From contig CAIIXF020000012.1 of assembly GCA_903813345.2 (NCBI GenBank), positions 35,570,528-35,634,527 on the forward strand: a stretch of DNA of 64,000 nucleotides, read 5' to 3'. Shown here one piece after another: positions 715 through 59,740 of the stretch. The position numbers and the translations under genes are program-made. Each line of letters starts with the position of its first letter. The stretch's first letter is position 1. The notes under the pieces are model-generated. The model was not told the DNA's origin and did no database searches. It saw only the letters and a program-made list of their open reading frames with translations. The DNA is from Owenia fusiformis. Taxonomy: Eukaryota > Annelida > Polychaeta > Sabellida > Oweniidae.

Positions 715-886
715 CTAGTGGGTTTGGCCCTGGGTTGGTTTCAATCCCAGCTCTCATTAAAAGTTGTCGTATTAATCGTAAGGAGACGGGGCTGTTTCTG
801 TATGCTGAGGGGTCTCTGTTTTCCGAATGTCCTCGATGTATAAACATCCCTATGGCTCCGCGCCACTGTTGTGTTGAAATACCCAT
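715..886 (-). CDS. First coding exon with 2A-like leader, left paralogue (partial gene)
   Basis: This exon encodes 57 residues from the ATG at 886: a basic leader with WRGAIGMF, then a short hydrophobic stretch LLMRAG, then the 2A-like motif GIETNPGP and NPL. A 2A motif makes the ribosome release the chain between G and P, so the leader would come off as a separate peptide. The exon ends CTAG|GTAAAAAG, a good donor that leaves codon phase 1, exactly as in the right copy. Against the right copy (59147-59318) I count seven substitutions, five synonymous and two changing residues (E/A, R/Q), which supports real coding under constraint. The D of the usual D(V/I)ExNPGP consensus is G here, so skipping efficiency is uncertain. 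The downstream exon is outside the window. Confidence 0.75.
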
Positions 887-10500: not shown

Positions 10501-12365
10501 GTCTCAGTTGGGATAACCTCAATCTCATTTTCACCTGTGAACAGTTTTGCTTCAGACTGGTCATTTTTCTCTTTCTCTGCTTTCTCTTCTTCGATCATGT
10601 TTTTGTACTGATTTCTTGTAGTCACGAAAGCTTCACTATTTCTCTTATATACATATTTGTCCATCTTTTCTTGGTCTAGTTTAGATAAAATATCTTGTCC
10701 AATGAGTACCGAAGCAGGGAGTGTATTTGAGACTGCTGCTTTGATTCTGTGAACATCATTTTCAAAGTGAATTTCTACCTCTGCTGTTGGGTATGACTGC
10801 TTATCACCATGTACACACGTCATCTCTACAGCTTCCCCATGAACAATTGTATCTTCACTGATAAGGTCCTTGTTTACAATGGTTTTGAAACTCCCTGTAT
10901 CCAATATCATTTCTACATCTTCATTATCATTGAGTCTGGCAATTACAGTTCCATCTTTTCTGGATCTATACTGTGTGAATATATCATTGGGCAATGTGCA
11001 TAAAAAGGCTGGTTTACTAGACCCTAGGTAACATTTCTCTTGGACGTGGCCATATTTATTACAACGTCCACAGTGTAAAGACTTATCTACCCGGCAGTCT
11101 TCAGTTTTATGATTTCTCATTCCACAGTTTTCACACTTCACAGGCTTTCTATCTCCATTGGTTGATGATGTTGTTCCTGGACCAGCTTTGAAGTTTAAGC
11201 TACACTCGCTTTCTTTGTGCCCAGTTTTATTACATTTTCTACAGATAATATCTTGAGGGCAATCTCTAGATCGGTGCCCTTTCTCCCTGCAGTTGAAACA
11301 TTCCCCAGGATTAACTGTGATTTGCTGTGATTTTCTCCAATTTGGATTATCTGAATTAGAGAACTTTCTGTTGAAATTTGCTGACTCATTGTTTTTTCTT
11401 TTCTCATTAGACTTCCAATAAACCGCATCTGTTTTTCTTGCTTCAAGGAAGTTGTCAGCGAACTTGATTACCTCATCTGTAGTTTTTGCGTCATTCTCTT
11501 TAACCCATGTTTGGACTTCTGTTGGCAAAGTTGTAACCAGTTGTTCTTTGATCAATATATCACTCATCAGTTCAAGTGTGGTCACATTTTTCATCCATTT
11601 TCTAAAAACATCTCTCAAACGTATGGTGAATGGTTTGATTCCCTCTCCATCATCTCTTTGTAGGTTCCGAAAACGTTTCCTGTAAGTCTCTTCATTAATA
11701 GCATATCGCTTAAGAATAGCTTCTTTAACGATTTCATAGTCACTTGCTTCTTCTTGGTCCACACTTGCGTAAGCCTCTTGTGCTTTGCCAGTTAAACTAG
11801 GTCCCAACTTCAGAGTCCAATATTCTTTTGGCCATTTACACATTGTAGCTGTCCTTTCAAAGATTGTTAGGAAGTTTTCGATGTCATCATTGTCTCTCAA
11901 TCTTGGGATGAATGGATCTTTTGGTTTATGTTTTTCTTCTTTATCTTCTTTTCTCTCTTTATCACGTCTTTTCCTTTCATCTTCAAGCTCCATTCTTCGT
12001 AGCTGTTCTTGGTATTTTCTTTCATCTTCTATCTCTTCTCTTCTAAGTTGTTCTTGTCTTTTACGATCTTCTTTCTCAGCTTCTAATTCTGCAAGTCGAA
12101 TCTTCTCTTGTCTCAGGAACATTTCTCTATCTTGTTCCGTCTTTTTCATCATTGTTGTCATCATCATCATCATTTGCTGTTGCATCTGCATTGGATTAAA
12201 TTGTTGGAACATTGTAGGATCAGTCCTTTCTTCTGTTGGTCCAACTGCTTCTTCGTGTTCTTCTTCTTTAAGTTTTTCTCTCTCTTTATCAGCCATCTTT
12301 ACTTTTGTTTGCTTTACTGGTGATGATTCCTTGCTATAAACTGTTTTCCTTGTATCAACTGGCAT
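7590..12365 (-). CDS. Gag-Pol polyprotein with integrase before reverse transcriptase (Gmr1 order)
   Basis: A single 1591-residue ORF. Residues ~50-150 are Q/M-rich, then a charged coiled coil. Residues ~150-320 form a SCAN-like capsid region (YRKRFRNLQ, RLRDVFRKWM, LVTTLPTEVQTWV). Four CX2CX4HX4C zinc knuckles lie at ~355, 375, 412 and 432. Protease follows, with MILDTGSF at ~487. Integrase is next: an HHCC zinc region (HNIPLSGH..CNSCDVC, ~745-785) and catalytic residues in GMDIVG (~812), TDQGTNF (~870) and TERYNG (~908). Reverse transcriptase follows (CVDFRDLN ~1225, YFDDLVVF ~1325), then RNase H (ITDAS ~1478) to the end. Integrase ahead of RT is the Ty1/copia-like order that defines the Gmr1 group of Ty3 elements. 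No frameshift or stop is seen. There is no ORF after RNase H. Confidence 0.95.
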   Translation of the reverse strand: MPVDTRKTVYSKESSPVKQTKVKMADKEREKLKEEEHEEAVGPTEERTDPTMFQQFNPMQMQQQMMMMMTTMMKKTEQDREMFLRQEKIRLAELEAEKEDRKRQEQLRREEIEDERKYQEQLRRMELEDERKRRDKERKEDKEEKHKPKDPFIPRLRDNDDIENFLTIFERTATMCKWPKEYWTLKLGPSLTGKAQEAYASVDQEEASDYEIVKEAILKRYAINEETYRKRFRNLQRDDGEGIKPFTIRLRDVFRKWMKNVTTLELMSDILIKEQLVTTLPTEVQTWVKENDAKTTDEVIKFADNFLEARKTDAVYWKSNEKRKNNESANFNRKFSNSDNPNWRKSQQITVNPGECFNCREKGHRSRDCPQDIICRKCNKTGHKESECSLNFKAGPGTTSSTNGDRKPVKCENCGMRNHKTEDCRVDKSLHCGRCNKYGHVQEKCYLGSSKPAFLCTLPNDIFTQYRSRKDGTVIARLNDNEDVEMILDTGSFKTIVNKDLISEDTIVHGEAVEMTCVHGDKQSYPTAEVEIHFENDVHRIKAAVSNTLPASVLIGQDILSKLDQEKMDKYVYKRNSEAFVTTRNQYKNMIEEEKAEKEKNDQSEAKLFTGENEIEVIPTETSTNSEELPFNFDESVFYPQIREKQKKSRREKRLQRRKAYTHDDTEINIDDINRDKLIQLQNTDPTLSNVRKALLDMPAEQQDTPYFIKKDNMVIRRVENLSGDIIEQIVVPRQCRKKVLELAHNIPLSGHLGIQKTTSRIMKKMFWPGIHRDVKGFCNSCDVCQKTSRKMLSNRAKMIPLPVITEPFSRIGMDIVGPLERSKRGNKYILVTTDYGTKFPEAVPMKKTDSKKVAEELMKQFSRVGVPKEILTDQGTNFLSKLMQEMYKMMKINGIKTTPYHQQTNGQTERYNGVLVKMIKKLTEDEPENWDIFLPYLLFAYREVPHATTGFSPFELLYGREVRGPIDVLSERWEPKRDVSTNVIEHITKMREKLESMHEIVKDKVIRAKHNQKAYYDEKSRDIEYKPGDQVLLLLPSSEMKLQAKWQGPFKIIKRCNKVNYDIQMGNKTKTYHVNLLKRYHNSDDFCCFTLQTIENDDIDRDSDNDDAEEYMSIQWPIIDDKENEHKFNISPTLTEEQEKQIVALLDEYNDVLSDEPGITDLITHHINTKDNKPVRQRLRRFPKAYIELMKEKVDKMISKGIMEPSMSEWGSNFVFVPKKNGELRDCVDFRDLNKVTEFDAYPMPRIDEILDGLATAVFITVMDLCRGFWQIPLSSDSKEKTSVLTPFGTFQFIRMPFGLHGAPATFQRAMDRMLEGAEEYSDAYFDDLVVFSTDFDSHLHDVRNILDRLRKHNLTAKPSKCRFAFEEVEYLGHIVGGGTIKPSIEKTEAIQRLEKPTTKKNLRTFLGMTGYFRKFVPKYAEIAFPLTELTKKSIPVKIPWGDREQKAHDQLKKLLCSDTILSSPDFTRTFLVITDASDVGISGVLSQDFDDGEHPIMYLSRKLLPREQNYAVIEKECLAIVWAVQYMRYYLLGRRFVVITDHNPLKWLNKMLNTNHRLTRWSLTLQQYDFKVIHRSGINNGCADALSRL

Positions 12366-13603
12366 ATTTTGTGAATTCCATGGTAAAAGATGTAAAAATT
12401 GAAAAAAAAAAATGTTGTTTTTTCTAACTCTTTCAAGTCATATCATAAATGAGGTAAAGTATCGCAAAGTATGACTCAAAGCTGACTGGCTTGATATAAA
12501 ATTTAATAAAAGTCCTTTGCAACAGCTAAGTTGAATTCATACAACCGCTTAACTTAATTGTTATAATATCTACTATTTGATATATATATATGTAATATAA
12601 TTTGGAATATCTTATGGCCCGTAGATTATTTGTTCGTATCTCTTGAAATCTGTAAACAACAGTAAAGTACAAATAACAATCAATTTTTGATAGTTTAAAA
12701 ATGAAATCTATAGGCCATCGTATTTCCAATTTAAAAATATTTTTATGATAAAGGCCACTGTATTTTAAGGCATTTGAATAAATTGAACCGAATGAGCAAT
12801 TGTATTTTTATAATATCTAAACACCATTCATATGTCACTATACTATAGAGATGTGTTGTTTAACTGAAGCTCTAATGCCACTGTACTGTATTGTATTACT
12901 GCTACATAGGCTAAGATATTTGTTGTTAGGATAATATGTAAACACTCTATAGGCCAAGGTACTATAAAAATATGTTAATCAACTAAACCTACTGGTCTAC
13001 TGTATTATGCATAGGCCAAACTACTACATAGGCCAAACCATTTTTTGTTGTTTGTTTATTGGCCACTGTACTCTAGGAATTGATAAAAACCTAACAGGCT
13101 GATCTATTGTCTAAACTAACCCTAAGCTGATTCAGTTGAATCAATTATGTAACTAACTGGAAAAAACTTGGTTGATTTTTGAGACTAAGCCAATTTTTAA
13201 CTATCAGCATCAATATTGAACCTAAGTACCATTTCTATTGCTAATTAGTTGACCAATGCTTGTGTGCAATATATATCAGACTCCAAATGTTTGCTTTGCA
13301 CAGTGCACTTTGCTTGTATTCAAAAAATGTTCACCAGTAGTTCAAACTTGAATCTATGGAAATCTCAATAGTTTCAATCCAATGTTTATTTTCTCAAAAC
13401 TAAATCTCTGTCTCAACTCAATTCTCTCTTCTCAAAATCTCAACTCATGAATTGCCTTTTTGCAAAATAAATCTGATCAATCTCAATCTCTTTTCTTTCT
13501 CCAAGAAATGTCAATTTATCTTTCTCATCTCAGGTTGAAGTCTCATTTTGGAAATTATAAAGTTCATCACTTACAGATCTCGACGACGTGTTGTTCGTAC
13601 AGT
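12366..13603 (-). other. Element 1 leader (5' untranslated region)
   Basis: A 1.24-kb AT-rich stretch between the primer site and the Gag start. It has no ORF of note. It contains scattered degenerate copies of TAGGCCACTGTACT-like words, for example near 12750, 12880, 12950, 13010 and 13060, suggesting an old short tandem repeat. Confidence 0.6.
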
Positions 13604-26985: not shown

Positions 26986-28206
26986 CTATACATGAAGTTT
27001 AGCGTATCTAGTGATCAAAGTATGATCCTCCAACACCTGTCCATCACGCGCCAAGTACCTAAACCTCACTTCTATCTTTATTGGTGGCAACTCATCTACT
27101 CTAGTCAGGCGCACTTGGGGTTGAGAACACGCTTGACTACCCTCCTTATTGGCCACTTCCTTAACACTTGTATTAGATTCTTTAGTGACTTTCTTCTCTG
27201 ACACTAAAATCTTTTCCATCCTTTTCTCAGGGACTTTCTTATCCAATGATCTTTTTTCAGGGATGTCTTTCTCAGGAATGGCACTTTTCTTTTCTACTGA
27301 TTTTTTTTCAGGGACATCTTTTTCCGGAAGGAAACTTTTCTTGTCTACTTTCTTTTCGTCTCTCTTTTCAGGTAGTCGTTTCTTCTCAGTTTTCTCTTTC
27401 GGAATTTCCTCTGTCGTGGAACTCTTGTCTGTTCTCTTTTCAGATTGCACATTTTCCATCTCAACTTCTTGAATCGTCATCTTTTGTGGTGTTTTCTCAG
27501 ATGTCTTCTGTGTTTTCATGGTATCAACTTTAGCCTTTTCAGCCTTCTTTGACGCGACCTTTTGATTTTCACTGAAATAATCTTCCGTATCCGAGGAGGA
27601 ACTTAAACTAGTACTCTCATCACTAATATACTCTTTGGATTTGAATGTTCCACCTGTACCCCAGTCGATAGATTTGTTTTTGTCGACAACCTTACCCCAT
27701 AATGGCTCTTCAGGCAAGAACAACTTCTCAGGAATCTCTAATACATCAGTGGCACTGACTCCCGTCAGGGTCACTGTATCTTCTTTCGGCTGGGAGAGTG
27801 TTGAACTTGCTGGCCTATGTGGATTGATTTGTTCCCTCAAGTCGGCCACAGTTGTTGATGGAGTCAGGTTAGCCAATAAAGTTGCTAATGAGGCCGCCAC
27901 AGCCTCCGACGACACTTGTGTACTAGGAGTAGTATTCTCGCTCCTGCTCTGATGAGTAGACGTATGGCTAGGGGGAGAGTGACTCTGATGCAAAGAGTTG
28001 TCCCTAAACGTGGGGCGTTCCGAGCGAGACCAATCAGCTCTGGAGGAGGAATGGCTAGGGTTATATGATTCAACTCTGGGTGAGGCACTGTGATGCTGTC
28101 TTTTTGGACTCCGACTACGGTTTCTGTACCCACTGTAGCCTCCTCTTCTTTGATAGGGGTCGTTCCTCCACCACTCATCTCTGTTGAACTCACGCCCACG
28201 CGGCAT
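26986..28206 (-). CDS. Candidate separate RS/KE-rich protein from spliced RNA of element 3
   Basis: This is the last 406 codons of the polyprotein. They start at ATG 28206 (MPRGREFNRDEWW) only 10 bp after CTGTGTGCTTTCAG|G (AG at 28218-28217). The protein would have a basic RS-like N-terminal half and a K/E/P-rich half with repeated PEKK/PEKR words, ending in a short more ordered segment (IKIEVRFRYLARDGQ). Both the acceptor and the ATG fit translation as an independent product in addition to the fused form. No donor was identified, so this is inference from position and from the parallel in elements 2 and 4. Confidence 0.4.
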   Translation of the reverse strand: MPRGREFNRDEWWRNDPYQRRGGYSGYRNRSRSPKRQHHSASPRVESYNPSHSSSRADWSRSERPTFRDNSLHQSHSPPSHTSTHQSRSENTTPSTQVSSEAVAASLATLLANLTPSTTVADLREQINPHRPASSTLSQPKEDTVTLTGVSATDVLEIPEKLFLPEEPLWGKVVDKNKSIDWGTGGTFKSKEYISDESTSLSSSSDTEDYFSENQKVASKKAEKAKVDTMKTQKTSEKTPQKMTIQEVEMENVQSEKRTDKSSTTEEIPKEKTEKKRLPEKRDEKKVDKKSFLPEKDVPEKKSVEKKSAIPEKDIPEKRSLDKKVPEKRMEKILVSEKKVTKESNTSVKEVANKEGSQACSQPQVRLTRVDELPPIKIEVRFRYLARDGQVLEDHTLITRYAKLHV

Positions 28207-31200
28207 TTCCAACGACCTGAAAGCACACAGGGAGACTTGGTTGAGTTCATAGTCGGCGAAGCGTTTAGGAGGTTTCAACCTCCTACCCAACCTACCACGG
28301 TTTTTATCATCAGAAACTGGAAATTTCTCCTTCAGCTGATTCGTCTCATCATCAAGATCTTCAGTCTTCTTTGCCATTTTGCACATCTCATCATATGGAA
28401 GATCAGTCGTCTCTTCTGGTCCATTCCTTTTCTTAACGGGAACTTCATTTGTCTCTTCAGAGTGGTTCATCTTTTCATCAGAAACTTCAGTGGTCACTTC
28501 GGGTTGACACATCCCATCCTCAGGAAGTTCCATTTTCTCTTCGAAATTGTATGTTGTAGGGAGTCTTCTTTCCTCACTCTCTAACTCTAGTGGTCCATGT
28601 ATGGGATCATCCTTCCGAACAGATTCCTTATTCTTCAACGGATATTCTGGTATTGGATAAGACATCTCAGTCTCATTCATCTTCAGGGGATCCTCAGGTA
28701 GTGAAGGAGGCATCTCTGTTTCCATCTCATCACCAAGTATCTTCCAATTTTTTGGCAGGGTACTCTCATACGGTTTTAGTTGATCAAAATGGACCACCTT
28801 CGGCTTCAATTTACCCCACTCTATAATCCGATAGGTAACGTCAGAGAGTTTCTTCAAAACCTGGAAGGGCCCTAGCCATTTGCTCTGTAGCTTTGGAGAC
28901 TCCCCTCGCTTTTTGTTATTATTAACATACCAGACGGGGTCTCCCCTGGTATAACCTTTGCCGCCAACTCGTCGATCGTACGCAGTCTTCTGACGAATTG
29001 CAGACTTTTTCAACACCACTCTGGCTCTACTGTGGGCTGCCTTCAATCCCTGTCTGAGCTCAGTCACATAATCGGTTTCCTCTAAGTTCTCTATTGGAGC
29101 ATCAACAATCAAATCCAATGGCACATTTAACTCCCTCCCAAACATAACCATGGCAGGGGTCTCTCCAGTTGCCTCATGTGCGGAAGTTCTGTAGGCCATC
29201 AAAGCCAGTGGAATTTGTAAATCCCAGTCATACTGATATGGTTCTGGCTGGAGGAGCTTAGCAATGGTGTCTAGAAGTGTACGATTGTATCTTTCAACCA
29301 TGCCATCACTTTGGGGATGAAATGGCGTCGTTCGGGTTTTATGGATACCCATCAACTTGCAGACTTGTTGGAAAACCTTGGACTCAAAGTTACGACCCTG
29401 ATCTGAATGTAGCTCAGATGGCGCCCCAAATCTACAAATGACTTCTGTCACAAGCTTATCTGCCACAGTTATTGCTTCCTGATTTGGTAAGGGAAATGCC
29501 TCGACCCACTTAGAAAAGTAGTCCCCGCAAACCAGTATAACTTTGTTACCCCTTGGAGTTTCTGGAAAGGGCCCAAGAACATCAACAGCATATCTCTCCA
29601 TTGGTCCACTTACTCCCTGTAACTGAAGTGGAGCTCTCCTGGCCCTCAATGGTTTCCTTCTACTTCCACAGATACGACAGGTCCGTACTATGGCTCGAAC
29701 GTCAACTCGTTGCTCAAACCAATAGAAACGCTGGCGTGACTTCAAGAAGGTCCTGCGTACACCGAAATGTCCTGCTACTTTAGTTGCATGACACATCTCT
29801 AAAACAGTAGACTTCATGGGTGATGGGGTCAAGATTTGAAGATGTACAAACTTCCCACTGGCATCCTCCCACCGTTTACACAATACTCCACTTTTCATCT
29901 CCAGTGATTTCCAAAGATGCCAGTAATGTTTTGTGGCTGGGGAGTCATAACTTATTGATTCCCAAGTTGGTCTTAGTTTGGATTCCTCTAGAGCATCAAT
30001 GAGAGGCATCAATTCTGGGTCTTCTCGTTGAGCCTTTGCAATTGTCGCAAGATCCCACTTTGGTTCGACAGACACAACAGCCAACTCTAACTCAGTAACA
30101 TCAGGTTCTCTTGTGATCTCCTCGCAATGAGTGCATTGAGTACATGGTTCTGGTCGCCTAGACATCACGTCCGCATTGGCATGCTTGTTCCCAGGTCTAT
30201 ATTCGAGATGATAATCGTACTCTTGAAGTATTTGTATCCATCTAGCCAGTTGTCCCTCTGGGTTCTTAAAATTGGTCAACCACTTGAGTGACCCATGATC
30301 GCTCCTGATTGTGAATCTCACTCCATATAAATACTGACGGAAATACTTCACATAATGGACCACTGCCAAGAGCTCCTTCCTAGTTACGCAATAGTTACGT
30401 TCTGGTCTACTAAGTCTGTGGCTAGCATAATATATAACCCGTTCCTCATTGTCCTGAACTTGTGACAGAACAGCTCCCAACGACTCATAGCTGGCGTCTG
30501 TGTCTAATATGTAAGGACAATCGTCTCTTGGGAAGGACAGAATGGGAGCGGTTGTCAATTTCTCCTTCAACATTACAAAAGCCTCTTCAGCTTTCTGTTC
30601 CCATCGAAATCTTTGATTCTTGCGTGTTAATTCATGTAGAGGGCCAGCTATCTCTGCAAAATTCTCAATGTGTCGACGATAATACGAGGCCCCTCCCAAA
30701 AATTGACGCACTTGCTTCACTGTTCTGGGAGTGGGATAGCTGCACATCCACTCGATCTTCTTTGGGTCAGGTGACAGTCCATCTTTGGAGACCAGGTGTC
30801 CCAGGTAGTTGACCTGAGTTTGGAACAACGTGCATTTACTGGGTTTCAACTTCAAGTTAGCTTGTCGTAAGCGACCAAAAACTCGCTCCAGTCGGCTTAA
30901 TGCTTGCTCAAAAGTGGGAGCAAACGTAATGACGTCGTCCAAATAGACAAGAGATCCATCGTTACCAAGTCCACCAAGCACTTGTTCCATTAGTCTACAA
31001 AAAGTGGACGGGGCGTTGGACAACCCAAAAGGCATCACAGTCCACTGGAATAATCCTCCTCTTACTGTAAAGGCTGATTTTTCCCGAGCAACAGAATCCA
31101 AGGAAACCTGCCAGTATCCGCTGGCTAAGTCCAAAGTACTGAAGTACTGGGACCCGCTCATTCTATCTAAAGTCTCATCGATCCGGGGAATTGGAAAAGC

Positions 31201-34200
31201 ATCCTTCTTTGTAGCATCATTAAGCTTCCGATAGTCTACGCAAAATCTCCACGAACCATCCTTTTTCCTAACTAAGACTATCGGAGACGCCCAGGGACTT
31301 TGAGAAGGTTCGATAATGCCTCTCTTCAGCATATCGTCAATCAATTTATCCACTTCATCTTGTCGGCACTTTGGCAACATCCGATATCTTTGTCGTATTG
31401 GTGGAGTGTCTCCTGTGTCAATGCTATGTTGGGTCAAGGAGGTCTTTCCCAAATCTTGATCATCCTTGGCGAAAATATCTGAGTTCCGGCACAAGAAAAC
31501 TTGAAGTTGGTTACATTGTTCTTCAGTCAACCCACTACAACTGCGCTGGAATAACTCCTGAAGAAATTCTGGTAAAGGAGGAAGTGGTCTCAACTCTGGA
31601 GCAGGAAGACACGCAGATTCTTCCTCTCCTTTTCCGCTGAGATAACAAACATTATCTCCCTTTTTATCGTCTGAAACCTGATATATCCCATCTTCAATCA
31701 AGGTAAATACTCCCAATGTGGCGCCTCCTTTGACTTCAACTTCCAGGTCGCTAGGATTTCGAACTTCCAGAAAACTGGTCTTGCTAGAATCAACTAAGGT
31801 GGTTACTATCTCAAGTTCCTCAGCATCGGAGTTTTCCATCAAATCCTCAATGATTCCTGTTCCAGTCATAGAAGTGTGCAACTTAACTTCAACAAGAATT
31901 CCGGAAAAGGGAGGTACGAAAACACTATTCTCGGTAGCACTATAGCACAGAGTACTTTTCCGCCCAGTCTCCTCACTATCTTCATTTACATAGTCTCCCA
32001 ACGGAGCGTCCTCATCCTCCTGAGAATCTTGTGGAGTTTCTGGTATGATAATGGGAGAATCAGGAGGAGTTAAGAAAATGCTGAACTCATCTTCAGGCGG
32101 CGGTGTCTCTGGAATACATTCGAACACAACTTTTGATGTATCAGGAAAATATGGAAGGGAGTCATCATCTGTCTCTTCATCTAAATCAGATGAAGATAGA
32201 GGACTTTCCAGCTCCCTTACTGGACAGCTTTCCAACTTTACTTCAGCTACCTCGGAGTTAGGAGATTCCATGGCTACTACACTGGAATCGGTATCGCAAT
32301 TTGACAGATGCTCTATGATGAATGTTTCCATTCCTATGTTGTCTGGTGTAGTAGACTCAATAGATGTGGAACTGACTTTACTATTTCCAAATGTTATCAC
32401 TTTCCTATCATAATCAATTATGGCTTTTGCTGCTCCTAAATAATCAGTTCCCAGGATACCCTCAAAGTCAATATTAGCTACTATCACATCAAGTTCTTCC
32501 TTATGGCCATCAACATCTATGCTACAGCGAATCATTCCCATCACACTCAAAGCTTCTCCATCCGCTTGTAGCAGAATATGGGTTGGGGGAAATAACTTCG
32601 GCCGGGTGGACAGAGGCATTCTTCTATAAGTCTCTACACTCAAAATAGTACGAACAGCCCCAGAGTCTACTAGAAATGCGACATTGGTATCGCACACCTC
32701 TCCCAAAGCTATCACTTTTCTAACCTCACTGTTGACTGAATGATCAGACTGATTTCGCACTTCTCTACCCTGGTGATTTAGAAACTTAATTGGAGCTGCC
32801 CGTGTTTGGTTACTCTGACTGGTCTGTTCCAGCTGAGCTCGCTCCGCTGCCCGTTTTCTTGAATAGCAATCAGCTATCCTGTGACCAGGCTTGTGGCAAT
32901 AGAAACATTCCATTCTTTTAGATGGCTGACCTGATGATTCAGGCTCAGGCCTATTTTGTTTAGTTAACAACTCGGCCATCTTTTCCAAGTTCCTTTTACA
33001 TTCTGATTGGACACTCTTTTGAGTTTCTATCTTGATGCTCTCGACTAAATCAGCTATCTTCTTTAATTCATCAGCTTTATCTTCAATGGCATTTACTCGA
33101 CTGTACTTAGATTTTTGGCCTTTTCTAATTTTCTCAGATTCTATGTATGACTCTTCCTTGAGAGCAACTTCAATAGCCTTATCAAGGGTGTTGCACTCTT
33201 TTGTATGTATTGCTCTTCGTATTTCATCCTCCAATATTGCTTGTTCAAAGCTACGTCGAGCCAGACGGTCTTGGGCAGTCCTACTCATTTCAGGGTATGC
33301 TAAAGAGGTAAGGCGTCTAATATCTTGGCCCAAAGTCTGCAAAGTCTCCTTTGGTTTCCGTATACGGCCCACTAACTCTGCCTCATAAACTTCAGCTTTA
33401 CCCCCGGGACCAAAACGCTTCTCCAAGGCTAGGAGGAGTTGATCGTAGCTATAATCATGTTCCATCTCTAGTACTATTTGTTGGGCAGGTCCTCTGAGAC
33501 TTGTGGCCAAAAATCTCTTCTTCTCCTCTTCCGACCAGTTATTAGCTTCCCCACAAATCTCAAAATATGCTCTGTAGTCTTGCCATGGTGTAGTTCCAGA
33601 ATAAACGTCTGGTTTGATTTTGTTTCTGCTGGACTGTTCAGAAGTGCCTTTCACAAACCTATCACATAACTTGGAGCACATCTTAACAAGCTCTGCTGAT
33701 AGATTGGAATCATGAAGGCTATCATCATTTTCTGATCTGTCCATTGGACCAGTTGGCTTCGGACTAAGAGATCTCTTCGGCAGTGAATCTTTAGGTTGAT
33801 TAAGTGGCTCTTCCTTCCGGAATGGAGAAAAGCGTTGAAAAGAGGTGGAATCAGCATGCTCATCCCCTGACTTGTCCCCAATTGGAACAAAACCCTCTAA
33901 ATCTTCAGGTTGCTGCTGATTGAATTCCTGGCTTTTATCCTCCATCAAATTTGAACCGGGACTCAGCAAAACTTTATCTTGCCTACGCAGCTGCCAAGGC
34001 TTTGTCACACCTGAAGCCAATGGGGTAGGTGTAAAACAGTCTTCAAACCTGGTGATTGAGGTAGTTTTTGGCATTGTAGGCTGATGTTGGCTATCATCCA
34101 TCAAGGAAGTCTGCATTCTAGTGACATTTCCTGCATGACGGGGGTTATCATATGATGGTGGAATACTAGCTTGAATTTTCTCCATCTGACTCTTGATACC

Positions 34201-34821
34201 CTGTAGTTGTGTCTGTTGTTGATCCTGACAACTTTGAACTTGCTCAGCAATATGAGCAATGTTGTGTACTTGGGTATTTTGCGTCTCCACTACTTGCATC
34301 ATACACTTCTGCTGAGTTTCAGCCAGTTTTTGCATCTGTCTCTGCTGAGCCAACAAAGATTCTCTAAACACCTCCATCTTTCTGTCAATCTTGCTCTCCA
34401 TTAGGATTAAGTCTGGTCTTGAGTCCTCCTCTTCAAACCTCTCAGTTGGTCCGCCAACAACAGAAGTTGGAAGAAATCTTGATCTTCGTGGGAGATCTCT
34501 TCCATGAGATGTGGGGTTAAATGGTGTCCTAGGATCCATCATTACACCTCCTGTCCAATAACCTGTGCTCGATAAGCTGGGTAGCCCTCTCTCCTCAATG
34601 TCAATCTGAGTCATTTTAGGTCTGGCTCCTTCTGCCTGAGTGACATCCCCAGGGGACTGTCCCTGTTCTGCCGTATGTGTTATCTCTGGTGCTGTCTCAT
34701 CAGCGGCACCTGGATTATCGATTTCCATATCATCTGACTTAAGAAAAACTGTTTTCTCCAGGTCCCCCTCAGTTACGTCCTCAACAGCTGGAGGAGGTGG
34801 AAAGTCAGGTCCTTGTTCCAT
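26986..34821 (-). CDS. Gag-Pol polyprotein with RS-rich and K/E-rich C-terminal extension
   Basis: One 2611-residue ORF. Residues ~135-215 form a Q-rich coiled coil. A Gag capsid-like region at ~395-600 (PWQDYRAYFEICGEANNW) is followed by a zinc knuckle CFYCHKPGHRIADC at ~639. Protease has VDSGAVRTIL at ~719. RT has FCVDYRKLN and VYLDDVITFA (~1290). RNase H has DTDAS (~1437). Integrase has an HHCC region at ~1677-1714 and catalytic residues in AVDVLGPF, HSDQGRNF and VERYNR (~1745, 1807, 1840). Domain order is the usual RT-RH-IN. After VVHFDQLKPYE (~2013) there is an acidic linker, then an Arg/Ser-rich region (SRSPKRQHHSASP, ~2235 on) and a long Lys/Glu-rich tail. A splice-acceptor-like site sits at the head of the RS region. 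The ORF is intact. Confidence 0.95.
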   Translation of the reverse strand: MEQGPDFPPPPAVEDVTEGDLEKTVFLKSDDMEIDNPGAADETAPEITHTAEQGQSPGDVTQAEGARPKMTQIDIEERGLPSLSSTGYWTGGVMMDPRTPFNPTSHGRDLPRRSRFLPTSVVGGPTERFEEEDSRPDLILMESKIDRKMEVFRESLLAQQRQMQKLAETQQKCMMQVVETQNTQVHNIAHIAEQVQSCQDQQQTQLQGIKSQMEKIQASIPPSYDNPRHAGNVTRMQTSLMDDSQHQPTMPKTTSITRFEDCFTPTPLASGVTKPWQLRRQDKVLLSPGSNLMEDKSQEFNQQQPEDLEGFVPIGDKSGDEHADSTSFQRFSPFRKEEPLNQPKDSLPKRSLSPKPTGPMDRSENDDSLHDSNLSAELVKMCSKLCDRFVKGTSEQSSRNKIKPDVYSGTTPWQDYRAYFEICGEANNWSEEEKKRFLATSLRGPAQQIVLEMEHDYSYDQLLLALEKRFGPGGKAEVYEAELVGRIRKPKETLQTLGQDIRRLTSLAYPEMSRTAQDRLARRSFEQAILEDEIRRAIHTKECNTLDKAIEVALKEESYIESEKIRKGQKSKYSRVNAIEDKADELKKIADLVESIKIETQKSVQSECKRNLEKMAELLTKQNRPEPESSGQPSKRMECFYCHKPGHRIADCYSRKRAAERAQLEQTSQSNQTRAAPIKFLNHQGREVRNQSDHSVNSEVRKVIALGEVCDTNVAFLVDSGAVRTILSVETYRRMPLSTRPKLFPPTHILLQADGEALSVMGMIRCSIDVDGHKEELDVIVANIDFEGILGTDYLGAAKAIIDYDRKVITFGNSKVSSTSIESTTPDNIGMETFIIEHLSNCDTDSSVVAMESPNSEVAEVKLESCPVRELESPLSSSDLDEETDDDSLPYFPDTSKVVFECIPETPPPEDEFSIFLTPPDSPIIIPETPQDSQEDEDAPLGDYVNEDSEETGRKSTLCYSATENSVFVPPFSGILVEVKLHTSMTGTGIIEDLMENSDAEELEIVTTLVDSSKTSFLEVRNPSDLEVEVKGGATLGVFTLIEDGIYQVSDDKKGDNVCYLSGKGEEESACLPAPELRPLPPLPEFLQELFQRSCSGLTEEQCNQLQVFLCRNSDIFAKDDQDLGKTSLTQHSIDTGDTPPIRQRYRMLPKCRQDEVDKLIDDMLKRGIIEPSQSPWASPIVLVRKKDGSWRFCVDYRKLNDATKKDAFPIPRIDETLDRMSGSQYFSTLDLASGYWQVSLDSVAREKSAFTVRGGLFQWTVMPFGLSNAPSTFCRLMEQVLGGLGNDGSLVYLDDVITFAPTFEQALSRLERVFGRLRQANLKLKPSKCTLFQTQVNYLGHLVSKDGLSPDPKKIEWMCSYPTPRTVKQVRQFLGGASYYRRHIENFAEIAGPLHELTRKNQRFRWEQKAEEAFVMLKEKLTTAPILSFPRDDCPYILDTDASYESLGAVLSQVQDNEERVIYYASHRLSRPERNYCVTRKELLAVVHYVKYFRQYLYGVRFTIRSDHGSLKWLTNFKNPEGQLARWIQILQEYDYHLEYRPGNKHANADVMSRRPEPCTQCTHCEEITREPDVTELELAVVSVEPKWDLATIAKAQREDPELMPLIDALEESKLRPTWESISYDSPATKHYWHLWKSLEMKSGVLCKRWEDASGKFVHLQILTPSPMKSTVLEMCHATKVAGHFGVRRTFLKSRQRFYWFEQRVDVRAIVRTCRICGSRRKPLRARRAPLQLQGVSGPMERYAVDVLGPFPETPRGNKVILVCGDYFSKWVEAFPLPNQEAITVADKLVTEVICRFGAPSELHSDQGRNFESKVFQQVCKLMGIHKTRTTPFHPQSDGMVERYNRTLLDTIAKLLQPEPYQYDWDLQIPLALMAYRTSAHEATGETPAMVMFGRELNVPLDLIVDAPIENLEETDYVTELRQGLKAAHSRARVVLKKSAIRQKTAYDRRVGGKGYTRGDPVWYVNNNKKRGESPKLQSKWLGPFQVLKKLSDVTYRIIEWGKLKPKVVHFDQLKPYESTLPKNWKILGDEMETEMPPSLPEDPLKMNETEMSYPIPEYPLKNKESVRKDDPIHGPLELESEERRLPTTYNFEEKMELPEDGMCQPEVTTEVSDEKMNHSEETNEVPVKKRNGPEETTDLPYDEMCKMAKKTEDLDDETNQLKEKFPVSDDKNRGRLGRRLKPPKRFADYELNQVSLCAFRSLEMPRGREFNRDEWWRNDPYQRRGGYSGYRNRSRSPKRQHHSASPRVESYNPSHSSSRADWSRSERPTFRDNSLHQSHSPPSHTSTHQSRSENTTPSTQVSSEAVAASLATLLANLTPSTTVADLREQINPHRPASSTLSQPKEDTVTLTGVSATDVLEIPEKLFLPEEPLWGKVVDKNKSIDWGTGGTFKSKEYISDESTSLSSSSDTEDYFSENQKVASKKAEKAKVDTMKTQKTSEKTPQKMTIQEVEMENVQSEKRTDKSSTTEEIPKEKTEKKRLPEKRDEKKVDKKSFLPEKDVPEKKSVEKKSAIPEKDIPEKRSLDKKVPEKRMEKILVSEKKVTKESNTSVKEVANKEGSQACSQPQVRLTRVDELPPIKIEVRFRYLARDGQVLEDHTLITRYAKLHV

Positions 34822-34848
34822 ATTCGAATATTGTATTACTAATCAACA

Positions 34849-53479: not shown

Positions 53480-54568
53480 TTATTTATTGGAATGTACCTG
53501 CTTGAATATAACAAGGCTCTTATTGTAGTAGTTCATTGCTACCTTATATTTACCCATAGCGTAATATACAATACCAATATTGGCAAATAACCCAGCAGTG
53601 CCAGTATGAGGATGATCACCATGAATCAGCTTCCACATGGTCAGACTCTCCTCATGTATTTTATAGACTTGTTATAGTCTCCTTTAGATCGATAAGCAGT
53701 ACCAATATTATTTAATGAGTCTGCTATGTCATTGTGAGGATGATCACCATGAATCAGCTTCCTCATGGTCAAACTCTCCTCATGGTATTTTATAGACTTG
53801 TTATAGTCTCCTTTAGATTTATATGCAATACCGATATTATTTATTGCGGCTGCTATATCAGTGTGAGGATGATCACCATGAATCAGTCTTCTCATGGTCA
53901 GACTCTCCTCGTGGTATTTTATAGACTTGTTATTGTCTCCTTTAGATTGATATGCATCAGAAATATTATATAATGAGTCTGCTATGTCAGTGTGAGGATG
54001 ATCACCATGAATCAGTCTCCTCATGGTCAGACTCTCCTCATAGTATTTTATAGACTTGTTATTGTCTCCTTTAGATTGATATGCAGTACCAGTATTATTT
54101 AATGAATTTGCTATATCAATGTGAGGATGATCACCATGAATCAGCTTCCTCATGGTATTTTATAGACTTGTTATTGTCTCCTTTAGATTGATATGCATCA
54201 GCAATATTATATAATGAGTCTGCTATGTCAGTGTGAGGATGATCACCATGAATCAGTCTCCTCATGGTCAGACTCTCCTCGTGGTATTTTATAGACTTGT
54301 TATTGTCTCCTTTAGATTGATATGCATCAGCAATATTATATAATGAGTCTGCTATGTCAGTGTGAGGATGATCACCATGAATCAGTCTCCTCATGGTCAG
54401 ACTCTTCTCGTGGTATTTCATAGACTTGTTATTGTCTCCTTTAGATTGATATGCATCAGCAATATTATATAATGAGTCTGCTATGTCAGTGTGAGGATGA
54501 TCACCATGAATCAGTCTCCTCATGGTCAGACTCTCCTCGTGGTATTTTATAGACTTGTTATTGTCTCC
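53480..54568 (-). pseudogene. Remaining TPR units of the 2A-nucleotidyltransferase-TPR gene, after the first stop
   Basis: The coding similarity continues for about eight more TPR units beyond the stop at 54569-54571. It stays in the same frame to about 54150. There 17 bp are missing between two CATGAGG repeats, which shifts the frame. Units 17-20 continue in the new frame to 53641, where one C is missing (TACATGAGG instead of TACCATGAGG). A last, more diverged unit (TAGLFANIGIVYYAMGKYK) then runs to a natural end VHSNK-stop at 53480-53482. AATAAA overlaps that stop and could be the polyadenylation signal. If not assembly error, these three changes remove the C-terminal third of the TPR array. 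Confidence 0.75.
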
Positions 54569-57500
54569 TTAAGATTGATATGCAATACCAATATTATTTA
54601 ATAAATTTGCTATATCAATGTGAGGATGATCACCATGAATCAGCTTCCTTATGGTCAGACTCTCCTCATAGTATTTTATAGACTTATTATAGTCTCCTTT
54701 AGATTGATATGCATTACCAATATTATTTAATGAGTCTGCTATGTCAGTGTGAGGATGATCACCATGAATCAGCTTCTTCATGGTCAGACTCTCCTCATAG
54801 TATTTTATAGACTTGTTATAGTCTCCTTTACATCGATATGCAGTACCAATGTTATTTAATGAGGCTGCTATGTCAGTGTGAGGATGATCATCATGAATCA
54901 GCTTCCTCATGGTCAGACTCTCCTCATGGTATTTTATAGACTTGTTATAGTCTCCTTTAGATTGATATGCATTACCAATATTATTTAATGAGGCTGCTAT
55001 ATCAGTGTGAGGATGATCACCATGAATCAGCTTGTTCATGGTCAGACTCTCCTCATAGTATTTTATAGACTTGTTATAGTCTCCTTTACATCGATATGCA
55101 GCACCAATATTATTTAATGAGGCTGCTATATCAGTGTGAGGATGATCACCATGAATCAGTCTCATCATGGTCAGACTCTCCTCATGGTATTTTATAGACT
55201 TGCTATTGTCTCCTTTAGATTGATATGCAGTACCAATATTATTTAATGAATTTGCTATATCAGTGTGAGGATGATCACCATGAATCAGTCTCCTCATGGT
55301 CAGACTCTCTTCATAGTATTTTATAGACTTGTTATAGTCTCCTTTAAATTGATATGCATTACCAATATTATTTAATGAGGTTGCTATATCAGTGTGAGGA
55401 TGATCACCATGAATCAGCTTATTCATGGTCAGACTCTCCTCATGGTATTTTATACACTTGTTATAGTCTCCTTTAGATTGATATGCAATACCAATATTAT
55501 TTAATAAATTTGCTATGTGAGTGTGAGGATGATCACCATGAATCAGCTTCCTCATGGTCAGACTCTTCTCATGGTATTTTATAGACTTGTTATAGTCTCC
55601 TTTACATCGATATGCAATACCAATATTATTTAATGAATTTGCTATATCAGTGTGAGGATGATCACCATGAATCAGCTTCCTCATGGTCAGACTCTCCTCA
55701 TGGTATTTTATAGACTTGTTATAGTCTCCTTTAGATTGATATGCATTACCGATATTATTTAATGAAGTTGCTATGTGAGTGTGAGGAAGATCACCATGAA
55801 TCAGCTTCATCATGGTCAGACTCTCCTCATGGTATTTTATAGACTTGTTATAGTCTCCTTTAGATTGATATGCAATACCAATACAATTTAATGAATTTGC
55901 TATACCAGTGTGAGGATGATCATCATGAATCAGCTTCATCATGGTCAGACTCTTCTCATGGTATTTTATAGACTTGTTATAGTCTCCTTTAGATTGATAT
56001 GCAGAGCCAATATTATTTAATGAATTTGCTATATCAGTGTGAGGATGATCAAGATGAATCAGCTTCCTCATGGTCAGACTCTCCTCATGGTATTTTATAG
56101 ACTTGTTATAGTCTCCTTTAGATTGATATGCATTACCAATATTATTTAATGAGGCTGTTATGTCAGTGTGAGGATGGTCACCATGAATCAGCTTCATCAT
56201 GGTCAGACTCTCTTTATGGTTTTGTATAGATCTGGTGTAGTCACCTTTAGAGCTGTATGCAAGGCCGATGAGGGATATTGAGATTGCTAACCTTATGTTA
56301 TGATGGTCCCCATACAATTGTTTCAACAATATCATACTCTCATTGATGTATTTTATTGCTATATTATTCTCTCCTTGTGATAGATACACTCTGGCTATGT
56401 TGTGTTTCACATCACTTAGCTCAATTTCATGACCTTTTGTTGTGAGTGATAAGATTCTTCCCTCTTCTTGTTTAAATGTCTCAATTGCACTGTTACAGAA
56501 ATTCATGTTTTTATACAGCTCAGCTTTTATTCTGTAACTTGTATCTATATACCTTTGTTTATTTTCAAGAGTTCTATCTACTTTTAAATGTTGCAGAAAT
56601 TCTGACCAAGGTTTAAATGTCATGAAGAATCTGAATATTGCTGTGTAATCCCGAACAGAAATCATGTTTGAATAATCAACTACGTTCCCTTTTGTTTCAA
56701 CGTTTGATCTTATTATGAATGATATAGGATCCTGTTGTTCATCATATCTGCCATAGACAAGATGACGCATATTAGTTACTATACAGGTCATTATTTGTAA
56801 ATCTTTCATTGCTCTCTCACTGAGGATTTTCCTTTGATGTAATTCCTCAAGTATATCAAGTGGGGAAAATGACTGACAGTTATGTAAAAGCTTCAATATG
56901 TTAATTGAGATTGTGGCAAATCTGTATATAGTGTGTTTTGTGTGTATTTTTTTACTAAATGACTCTGGCGCAAGAGGATTTCTAATGTAATTTTCTAAAT
57001 CCTCTGCCAGTGTTTCCAGCCCACGTTCCCTGCCTATTGATATGTTTGGGTTATTAGTAGAAGATGATGCTAGTATTATGTGAACCTTGTTATTATATTG
57101 TTCCCAGAGAGCAAGGTCTCCTTTTATAAGGGTGGATGTGAGAAGGACATCACTGAGATGATACCCTTCCTTAATGGACACATCTTCTTGCTGACACTGA
57201 GCCATCTCTTCAACAGTCATTATCAGTTCTAGACCTGTACATTTGTTAGGATTTCGTGTTGATTGCCTACCAAATGGAGTTTTGCTTGCTTTTGGTTGGG
57301 TACCATCAAAGCTAAGACCTCTCTTTGTGATTGTGTCATAAAAGTCATTGTTTTTCAAATGTTTAGGGAGTTTATCATTGAAATCATTAAGAACTGGGAT
57401 GTCAAGATTGTTAATCAATGTCTCCCCAAGATTTATTATCTTCATATGGAAATAATGCACAAGAGTTCTGAATTCTTGCTTTATTTCTTTGATTTCATTC

Positions 57501-58155
57501 TCTGTTTTGTCACCTGGGTCATACAGAATGGCCGACTCAAGATCTGACCAGGCCGTTGCCTCTTTTCGAGCCAGCGATCCTAGACCCAAAATGGCATACC
57601 TGCACTTTGGTGCCCCAAGGACTGATATGCAATCATCAAGCATTGTGTTATATAGAGATATAATGAACTCTATCAGTTTATCATAATAATCCCTGCTATG
57701 AGCAATTGTTTCATCTTCATTTTCATTAGTCATTTCAGATGTGACACTGTCAATTTGCATATCATTAATATGAATAGCATTTACAGTCTCATTGGAATAT
57801 TCCCTTAATTTCTCAATTTCTTCTTTGTATTTCTTTGTACAACTCAATGTTGGTTCAGTGTTTTTTTTACATACAGTTTTCAGAAAGTTGGTCTCTATTT
57901 GTTGCAGATGTTGGTTTATATAGTCAACATTACAATGACTATCTGAGTTTGTTACCTGATCCTTTTCAATCCGTTGTTTTGCAGAATTAAAGAGTGCTGC
58001 AGCCCAATTAAAGTGCCAACCATCTGATGTTTCTTTCCCTAGTTCTGCATATTCATTTCCAAGCTTACACATCAGTTCAGCTTGCTTGGTCAGCTCTCCA
58101 TCCTTATTGCATGCTACAATCTGATGGCCCAACTTATACATGGCATCTGTAGCCT
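54569..58155 (-). CDS. 2A-led nucleotidyltransferase (GlnD/DUF294-like)-TPR protein, main exon
   Basis: The exon starts after TTCATTTTAG (AG 58157-58156); its AG joins the single G of the 2A exon to give codon GAG (..NPL-E-ATDAMYKLG). About 1195 residues follow. First is a helical region, then at exon residue ~190-205 (G)LGSLARKEATAWSDLE, the GS..DhE signature of polymerase-beta-type nucleotidyltransferases as in GlnD and DUF294 proteins. GLSFDGTQPKASKTP and a helical segment (LSERAMKDLQ..RHLVYGRYDEQQD) match that family's C-terminal part. From ~560 on come kinesin-light-chain-like TPRs, the last 13 units nearly identical and 43 residues long (LNNIGNAYQSKGDYNKS). The stop is AAA to TAA inside unit 13. 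The 58309 ATG of the open frame is in intron repeats and is not used here. Function unknown. Confidence 0.8.
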
Positions 58156-59146
58156 CTAAAATGAACAGATACAAGTTTATAAATTTTTTCTGTTCCCTCT
58201 TAAATAATGAAATACAAGTCAACCAATGGCATCTATAACTCCTAAAATAACCAAATACAAGGATACTTATGGTATCTGTGACCTCTAAAATAACCAAATA
58301 CAAGTACACTTATGGCATCTGTAACCTCTAAAATAACCAAATACAAGTATACTTATGGCATCTATAACCTCTAAAATAACCAAATACAAGTATACTTATG
58401 GCACCTGTGACCTCTAAAATATCCTAATACAAGTATACTTATGGCATCTGTGACTTCTTAAATAACCAAATACAAGTATACTTATGGCATCTGTGACCTC
58501 TAAAATAACCAAATACAAGAATACTTATGGCATCTGTGACTTCTTGAATGACCAAATACAAGTATACTTATGGCATATGTGACCTCTAAAATAACCAAAT
58601 ACAAGTATACTTATGGCATCTGTGACTTCTTGAATGACCAAATACAAGTATACTTATGGCATATGTGACCTCTAAAATAACCAAATACAAGTACATGTAT
58701 ACTTATGGCATCTGTGACCTCTAAAATAATTCGATTCAAGTATGTCACTGGCAGTGCATTTGTTGACTCAACACTGTAATATATCAATTGTATCTAGAGG
58801 CTCTCAAAAATAATCAAATTCAGACAAATCAATGGTATATGTGTCTTCTTCAACAATCAAATTCAAACAAATCAATTGTATATGTGTCTTCTTGAACAAT
58901 CAAATTCAAACAAATCAATGGTATATGTGTCTTCTTGAACAATCAAAATTAAACAAATCTATCATATATGTGTCTTCTTGAACAATCAAATTCAGACAAA
59001 TCAATCTTATATGTGTCTTCTTGAACAATCAAATTCAAACAAATCAATGGTATATGTGTCTTCTTGAACAATCAAATTCAAACAAATCAATGGTTTATGT
59101 GTCTTCTTGAAAAATCAAATACAAGTTTATCAGTAAATCTCTTTAC
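58156..59146 (-). repeat. Intron of right 2A gene, made of acceptor-bearing repeats
   Basis: A 991-bp GT-AG intron. From the acceptor outward, 58245-58730 holds about 11 units of 43 bp. On the minus strand each unit reads TTGGTTATTTTAG then AGGTCACAGATGCCATAAG, close to the real junction TTCATTTTAG|AGGCTACAGATGCCATGTA. One ~78-bp unit (58730-58810) and about seven 43-bp units of the TTGTTCAAG|AAGACACATATACC type (58810-59115) follow. The left locus has the same order. Confidence 0.85.
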
Positions 59147-59318
59147 CTAGTGGGTTTGGCCCTGGGTTGGTTTCAATCCCAGCTCTCATCAAAAGTTGTT
59201 GTATCAATCGTAAGGAGACAGGGCTGTTTCTGTATGCTGAGGGGTCTCTGTTTGCCGAGTGTCCTCGATGGATAAACATCCCTATGGCTCCGCGCCACTG
59301 TTGTGTTGAAATACCCAT
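59147..59318 (-). CDS. First coding exon with 2A-like leader, right paralogue
   Basis: 57 residues from ATG 59318: leader MGISTQQWRGAIGMF.., RNSPVSLRLIQQLLMRA, then GIETNPGP-NPL. The expected ribosome skip is after G53, leaving a downstream protein that begins with P54. The exon ends CACTAG|GTAAAGAG in phase 1, matching the phase of the acceptor at 58157-58156. The stop seen if one reads through (GKEIY-stop) is in the intron. 2A leaders upstream of immune-type receptors have been described in sea urchin, where unskipped product can act as a signal sequence. A non-LTR-retrotransposon origin of such leaders is also known. Both are parallels, not proof. Confidence 0.8.
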
Positions 59319-59740
59319 GATTCAGAGTCTCCACTCCAAATAGAATATGTCAGCTTGGCATTATAATCATATGGTTGAAAGTCCCTTTATGGTTCTGGGC
59401 TGAGTCACTGTTTTGACGATTGTTGTGATGTATTACCCATGCTTCAGTTGAATTGCCTCAACTACAAGTATAATGTGTTAATATGAGATTTTTTTTAGTT
59501 TTGTAGTCAAATCATGCCCTCATAGCAATTCAGATAATAAAGTTACCTTTTGATTTGATAATCAATCTAGTTTACTCTTAAAGTTTCGTTGTTTCTTCTC
59601 ACTCCAGATACCATACAAAAATGCTAATTGAGGTAGTTTCAAACTCTGGGCAAATTAGAGTTATAAAATTACATACTGCTAATTAGCTAAATAAATGGTG
59701 CCTTAGATCCTGACAATGAATGAAAGTCTATAATATAGCC
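59319..59740 (-). promoter_or_regulatory. 5' region of right 2A gene, duplicated at the left locus
   Basis: Aligns by eye with the left 5' region (887-2150), including GACGATTGTTGTGATGTATTACCCATGC and CTCATAGCAATTCAGATAATAAAG. It contains only one short 5' unit (59320-59420), where the left locus has four. Presumed promoter and 5' untranslated sequence; no TATA box identified. Confidence 0.5.

Follow-up and report, generated by a model that had tools for sequence, protein, structure and literature searches.

According to the accessible part of a published account, StopGo (2A) peptides are mostly viral, and cellular genes seldom have them (PMC12846837). A host example is the sea urchin protein SpNLR2A6, in which the 2A leader, as far as the accessible text describes it, also takes the role of a signal sequence if skipping does not occur (PMC4981915), and a related body plan is that of the NEX2 family of Neochlamydia, for which the accessible text gives an F-box, an OTU domain in ten of 50 members, DUF294 and TPRs (PMC4209131). 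Here we analyze a gene of the annelid Owenia fusiformis located on the reverse strand at positions 54569-59318 of a 64,000-nucleotide stretch of DNA (assembly GCA_903813345.2, contig CAIIXF020000012.1, positions 35,570,528 to 35,634,527), which at its full length is termed the window. The gene encodes a 2A leader, a nucleotidyltransferase (NTase) and a TPR array. Sequences of the 2A type are also said to have been reported by Odon in 2013 in APE-type non-LTR (long terminal repeat) retrotransposons. We propose, with moderate confidence, that a leader shared with long interspersed nuclear elements (LINEs) heads an expanded O. fusiformis family of AMPylase-like TPR proteins, a proposal in which ribosomal skipping, AMPylation, targeting by the TPRs and the direction of leader capture are what we infer.

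Several components of this gene are already known from elsewhere: 2A occurs both on host NLRs and in LINEs, and the body plan is known from NEX2. Like the SpNLR2A proteins, the window gene product is a repeat-rich host protein of an expanded family with an N-terminal 2A, but the sea urchin leader has 26 amino acids, no N-box (the conserved start of the Owenia leaders) is mentioned in the accessible text and the body is of the NACHT/LRR type, whereas the window leader is weakly hydrophobic and precedes an NTase/TPR body (PMC4981915). The NEX2 proteins, to the extent that the accessible text describes them, resemble the Owenia family in having DUF294 in the middle of the protein followed by multiple C-terminal TPRs, with OTU in some members, and differ in that most start with an F-box, whereas the Owenia protein has a 2A leader and an intron and is the product of an animal gene (PMC4209131). 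The sequence-only reading had taken the architecture for a class without known counterpart, and as far as the body plan is concerned that claim has to be given up, as OTU-DUF294-TPR with an F-box is described as chlamydial NEX2 in the accessible part of the same report (PMC4209131). The gene shares an in-frame 2A with the 2A-bearing APE-type LINEs, and the same N-box is found on Owenia LINEs, but it shows no endonuclease or reverse transcriptase (RT) and its leader is a spliced exon. A literature search covering mostly papers available without subscription found neither a 2A leader on DUF294/TPR proteins nor an annelid 2A.

The two-exon structure that had been read from the sequence is confirmed at that level, with the leader exon predicted to be joined in phase to exon 2. 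Exon 1 (59147-59318, on the reverse strand like all features of the gene) encodes a 57-residue leader made up of the N-box and the 2A, plus the first base of a split codon, and its translation, MGISTQQWRGAIGMFIHRGHSANRDPSAYRNSPVSLRLIQQLLMRAGIETNPGPNPL, ends in GIETNPGPNPL. The donor CTAG|GTAAAG (59147) and the acceptor TTTTAG|AGG (58155) leave matching phases and an open joined frame, giving a product of 1252 amino acids. Between them lies a phase-1 intron of 991 bp (58156-59146), by repeat analysis mostly a 43-bp minisatellite (58189-58729 and 58812-59124), and exon 2 (54569-58155), as delimited by profile scans and the joined translation, consists of a helical N-terminal part, the NTase and the TPR array and stops at a TAA. 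Three agreeing lines of sequence evidence support the join: fusion records from Owenia, the layout of two paralogues (A and C), and the open-frame acceptor with its spacing. Both paralogues have the same layout, with a GTAAAA or GTAAAG donor, a CATTTTAG|AGGCTACAGATG acceptor and introns of 1968 and 1116 bp. Only four of 76 AG sites keep the frame open into MYKLG, and two of the four are TTTTAG|AGG (58155 and 58284). The Owenia records P0003 and P0011 start at MYxLG, just within exon 2, and the distance from NPGP to MYxLG is 11 residues in P0006 and P0009 and 10 in P0124. Acceptor 58155 is preferred because the eight residues that it gives are nearer to these values, and acceptor 58284, which adds 43 residues and departs from the 10-11 of the relatives, was set aside. 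The intron contains about 20 copies of the 43-bp unit, the TTTTAGAGGTCACAGATGCC core of which resembles the exon-2 acceptor, so that several decoy acceptors stand in tandem within it; TTTTAGAGG is present nine times, the true acceptor included.

The leader starts with the N-box MGISTQQWRGAIGMF (59274-59318) and carries toward its end the octapeptide GIETNPGP (59157-59180), which fits the StopGo core rule (D/G/C/N)(V/I)ExNPGP given in the accessible text (PMC12846837). Since 9e-5 canonical octapeptides are expected in the six frames of the window and two were found, a chance octapeptide is ruled out, and the 2A leader recognized by the sequence-only reading stands. The upstream residues, RLIQQLLMRAG, show the leucine-rich context, small residue and G of the motif in the accessible part of the same account, as compared by eye (PMC12846837). 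When aligned, the Owenia leaders start with MG-x5-WRxAIGxF, the N-box, and end in the 2A, with a linker of variable length between the two. NPGP occurs in eight of the 17 Owenia proteins from the NTase search, and when three proteins from the leader search are added it is present in 11 of 20, with the N-box in ten of those 11. The leader-NTase-TPR architecture proposed for the window gene accordingly recurs in eight of the 17 NTase-search records and at other loci of the genome. The KD17 hydrophobicity before NPGP is 0.74 in the window leader, which has R, Q, Q and R within this stretch, compared with 1.5-2.9 in the other Owenia leaders. It is therefore the second part of the cleavable or targeting leader suggested previously that becomes doubtful for the window copy. 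Between the leaders of copy A and the window (copy B) there are five synonymous and two nonsynonymous differences (Fisher p 0.009), and the leader exon is 96% identical while the flanks, at 91-94%, are barely less alike.

The leader is followed by OTU in seven of the 11 leader-bearing Owenia proteins (in P0009 by a precomputed domain list only). Four OTU-type paralogues (P0005, P0007, P0122 and P0123) have the non-canonical octapeptides GVHLNPGP or GVQLNPGP, which may tune the efficiency of skipping; H at p14 is listed among rare functional StopGo variants in the accessible text (PMC12846837). The 5' flanks at 976-1106, 1717-1859 and 59420-59440 contain repeats with decayed N-boxes (MGISTLQWLSPEP and MGNTSQQSSKQ), that is, short upstream open reading frames (ORFs) before the true leader.

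The linkage of leader and NTase was also examined genome-wide. The 498-Mb O. fusiformis genome was scanned with a DNA pattern for QWRxAIG, which has 87 exact matches (a control pattern has one), and with the DUF294 model at E <= 0.001, which has 53, making 54 NTase loci with copy A. Thirty of the 87 N-boxes precede 24 of the 54 NTase loci on the same strand at a distance of no more than 10 kb, compared to none on the opposite strand, none after a 300-kb shift and two in the wrong order, although the 30 are not independent because several boxes occur at some loci and many loci are clustered. At the best 20 of the 53 DUF294 loci, where about 9 kb upstream was checked (one region had 4.4 kb and two overlap), a sense octapeptide is found at eight, with the N-box sharing the reading frame of the 2A at six of them, and an antisense octapeptide at none. 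Of five dispersed N-boxes that were opened, those in L049, L050, L052 and L053 run into endonuclease and/or RT sequence (in L050 after a stop), the single ORF scanned in L051 has no domain, and all five have a 2A-like sequence. The leader is common to host genes and LINEs of one genome. In the four LINE loci the N-box is separated from the 2A-like sequence by about 135 residues that include hydrophobic stretches, and endonuclease and/or RT comes after the 2A-like sequence.

Relatives of the leader also exist beyond the NTase search. A profile built from eight leaders (E <= 10, with a length filter that left out five of the eight known leader proteins) found at least six Owenia proteins and at least 15 not labeled as Owenia, the best of the latter at E 3e-6 and one of the 15 from the termite Cryptotermes. 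The non-Owenia matches were chosen by the same profile, and it is therefore a decoy test and separate octapeptides that carry weight: the N-box scored alone gives 9.8-38.8 bits in eight of the 15, where the best of 300 shuffled decoys gives 1.6, and P0126, P0134 and P0135, which were found via the N-box, each have a separate canonical octapeptide. P0139 has PHD and GDSL/SGNH domains, a combination known from LINE ORF1 proteins, and a 2A; it has no N-box score, and its start is similar by eye only. A leader search with residues 1-60 of P0017 returned only P0017 itself among 31 candidates.

The NTase was identified in exon 2 by DUF294 (PF03445), with 28.1 bits against a gathering cut-off of 21. 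The catalytic motif GSLARKEATAWSDLE (57536-57580) has G, S, D and E invariant over 30 rows, which bears out the DUF294-type NTase with GS...DxE that had been read from the sequence. Of 40 columns that are invariant in 29 relatives the window protein keeps 39, the exception being a gap at the start-methionine column. The predicted fold (56570-58015, exon-2 residues 47-528) is nearest to GlnE and DrrA, both protein adenylyltransferases, with about 310-320 residues matched at 12-14% identity. DrrA/SidM and GlnE are similar to the window protein in predicted fold and in the GS...Dx(D/E) motif but differ in the low identity and in that a TPR array follows in the window protein. On this modeled fold the enzyme is most likely a protein adenylyltransferase (AMPylase-like), and AMPylation would be its activity. 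In GlnD, HD and ACT domains follow the NTase. Neither has a Pfam match in exon 2 at E <= 1 and TPRs are present instead, and we reject the GlnD half of the earlier GlnD/DUF294 assignment while retaining the DUF294 half. A GlnD chain is not among the best 50 fold matches, an absence that excludes nothing. None of the 22 Pfam families that match exon 2 at E <= 1 is NACHT or LRR, the domains of an NLR, or F-box, and PADLOC found nothing for the window and TPR or weak matches for two relatives.

The proposed TPR scaffold is supported (TPR_12, E 2e-143) and forms an in-frame array of 43-residue units, 13 of which were counted (54572-56251). The units vary most at unit positions 19, 33 and 40, with a pN/pS of 0.73 among units. 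The TAA at 54569-54571 is inside this 129-bp repeat array, which continues to about 53602, and the remaining array and a terminal cap are located past it (53480-54568) with frame losses near 54145 and 53655. Because the ORF ends within the array and two frame losses follow, the window copy is 3'-damaged, and we regard it as a truncated gene or a young pseudogene within a family that is under selection. Neighbor A, by comparison, is intact, with 1068 exon-2 codons open and a terminal cap like that past the window TAA. Its leader exon is in the window (715-886, reverse strand) and its exon 2 is beyond the window start, in L026, and is 95% identical over 540 amino acids. Its 5' flank, leader and intron start occupy 1-2148 of the same strand, in which two stretches, 3-979 and 1715-2148, match 58460-59411 and 59296-59732 at about 83% identity. 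The enzyme is under purifying selection: over the NTase part, dN/dS is 0.206 for A-B (540 codons, Fisher p 3e-9), 0.167 for A-C (360 codons, p 1e-9) and 0.235 for B-C (360 codons, p 4e-6). The local cluster contains four N-boxes (C12 35551335, 35571376, 35629808 and 35661684).

Among animal proteins, the DUF294-TPR proteins of Branchiostoma resemble the window protein in their NTase (36-44% identical) and TPR arrays but, unlike it, lack NPGP (0 of 103 fetched). Among prokaryotes, two peptide patterns run against a single genome of each species matched 15 loci (L001-L015), which are titled Rickettsiaceae/Rickettsia, Parachlamydia, Amoebophilaceae, Cytophagales or Alphaproteobacteria. The titles of these nearest bacterial NTase relatives found are mostly those of bacteria living inside cells. 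Ten of the 15 bacterial ORFs were scanned, and clear TPR arrays are present in eight, a marginal TPR match in L009 and none in L006, with neither OTU nor F-box among the matches listed for the ten. The NPGP of L006 was rejected as a 2A, since its context lacks 2A features. An NTase tree of 42 rows, built from the first GS..SDxE slice of each protein, included the window protein, 17 from Owenia, 10 of the 103 from Branchiostoma and 14 of the 15 bacterial sequences (L001 was too short and was dropped; P0022 is a long branch). Animals and bacteria fall on its two sides (98/90), which says nothing firm on the direction of transfer, and the window protein is within the Owenia clade (14 rows, 99/97).

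In the mechanism that we propose, the first exon would encode the N-box and then the 2A/StopGo peptide, and most ribosomes would let go of the leader at NPG|P and go on translating. With the G-P bond skipped, proline would be the first residue of the enzyme, a protein of its own in the cytosol. The TPR superhelix, variable at its positions 19, 33 and 40, may then select and bind a target, to a side chain of which the GlnE/DrrA-like NTase would most likely transfer AMP, and in several paralogues an OTU protease follows the leader. The most likely source of the leader is a LINE, from which it would have been captured before spreading with gene duplication, a direction proposed because the same leader is on LINE endonuclease-RT proteins of the same genome. 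A number of observations weigh against this account. Foldseek gives low TM-scores, 0.35-0.37 when taken by model length, and the motif is G-x11-D-x-E, with E as the second acidic residue, where the DrrA/GlnE adenylyltransferase motif is G-x11-D-x-D. Copy C is frameshifted near codon 540, the window copy is without its C-terminal cap, and purifying selection on the leader would have to be read from seven differences. There is no detected NTase within 10 kb downstream of 57 of the 87 N-boxes, two N-boxes come after an NTase rather than before it, on its own strand, and 12 of the best 20 DUF294 loci have no upstream octapeptide. Among the five opened dispersed boxes the 2A is fully canonical in L051 alone, and in seven of the 15 non-Owenia matches, PHD proteins included, the N-box by itself scores at most 4.1 bits or not at all.

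The alternatives differ in which part of this account they would replace. The most serious, to which we give slightly less than an even chance, is that the window copy is a dead pseudogene and that its neighbors alone matter, as the TAA within the array, the two frame losses after it and the intact state of neighbor A would suggest; against this, exon 2 is open for 1194 codons and keeps the conserved core columns, and the dN/dS of B versus A is low, although selection predating the damage would look alike. That the leader is a signal sequence plus StopGo, with part of the enzyme secreted or membrane-borne and part cytosolic as in the sea urchin NLRs, is unlikely. Such dual targeting is demonstrated for SpNLR2A6 in the accessible text (PMC4981915), and the stretch before NPGP is strongly hydrophobic in most Owenia leaders (KD17 as high as 2.9), but weakly so in the window leader, with its charged and polar residues.

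We consider it quite improbable that the enzyme is a GlnD-type protein uridylyltransferase acting on a PII-like protein, as implied by the database name 'Protein-PII uridylyltransferase N-terminal domain' and a weak match to the GlnD model (E 0.08), given the lack of HD and ACT among the Pfam matches and the fold matches to GlnE and DrrA. Still less probable is that the leader is part of LINE insertions located upstream by chance and is unspliced to the NTase. LINEs with the same leader are indeed dispersed in the genome, but the same-strand linkage of 30 of 87 against zero in two controls, an intron that is mostly 43-bp repeats, a leader-intron-exon layout repeated in three paralogues and the fusion present in Owenia records such as P0124 and P0006 all oppose it.

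Returning to the LINE-shared leader on an AMPylase-like family, the recurrence of the leader ahead of two dozen host loci, together with its sister copies on LINEs, makes the cellular use and the origin of StopGo directly testable, and suggests that translation signals of mobile elements are reused in host genes. The pairing with a conserved N-box hints at a function of the leader peptide itself after its release, and through the body of the protein an animal gene family is connected with AMPylase folds and with a body plan that intracellular bacteria are known to have. A more tentative extension, which we rate as rather less than an even bet, is that a LINE leader (N-box and 2A) was domesticated as a shared first exon and provides a common StopGo start for at least two dozen genes of the AMPylase-like TPR (and OTU) kind. 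The leader would be an exchangeable expression cassette with an N-box function of its own, and the family, expanded in this lineage, would be a system for recognizing non-self or stress-altered proteins via variable TPR faces and AMPylating them. The family may have an immune role, in view of its expansion, its variable TPRs and its similarity to the sea urchin NLRs.

Some further observations concern other loci. One NTase locus has five N-boxes upstream of it within 1.8 kb (C8:34412072-34413793). Four of these were read in L043, and three of the four stop short of a 2A, a pattern that resembles a leader exon duplicated in tandem. The Owenia record P0016 joins EGF repeats to the NTase-TPR body and may be a gene-model fusion. 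The window also contains two open Gypsy-like ORFs on the reverse strand, one of 1615 amino acids (7590-12437), in which the integrase is ahead of the RT, an unusual order, with a SCAN-like part upstream, and one of 2618 amino acids (26986-34842) with the usual order and a C-terminal extension of about 590 amino acids.

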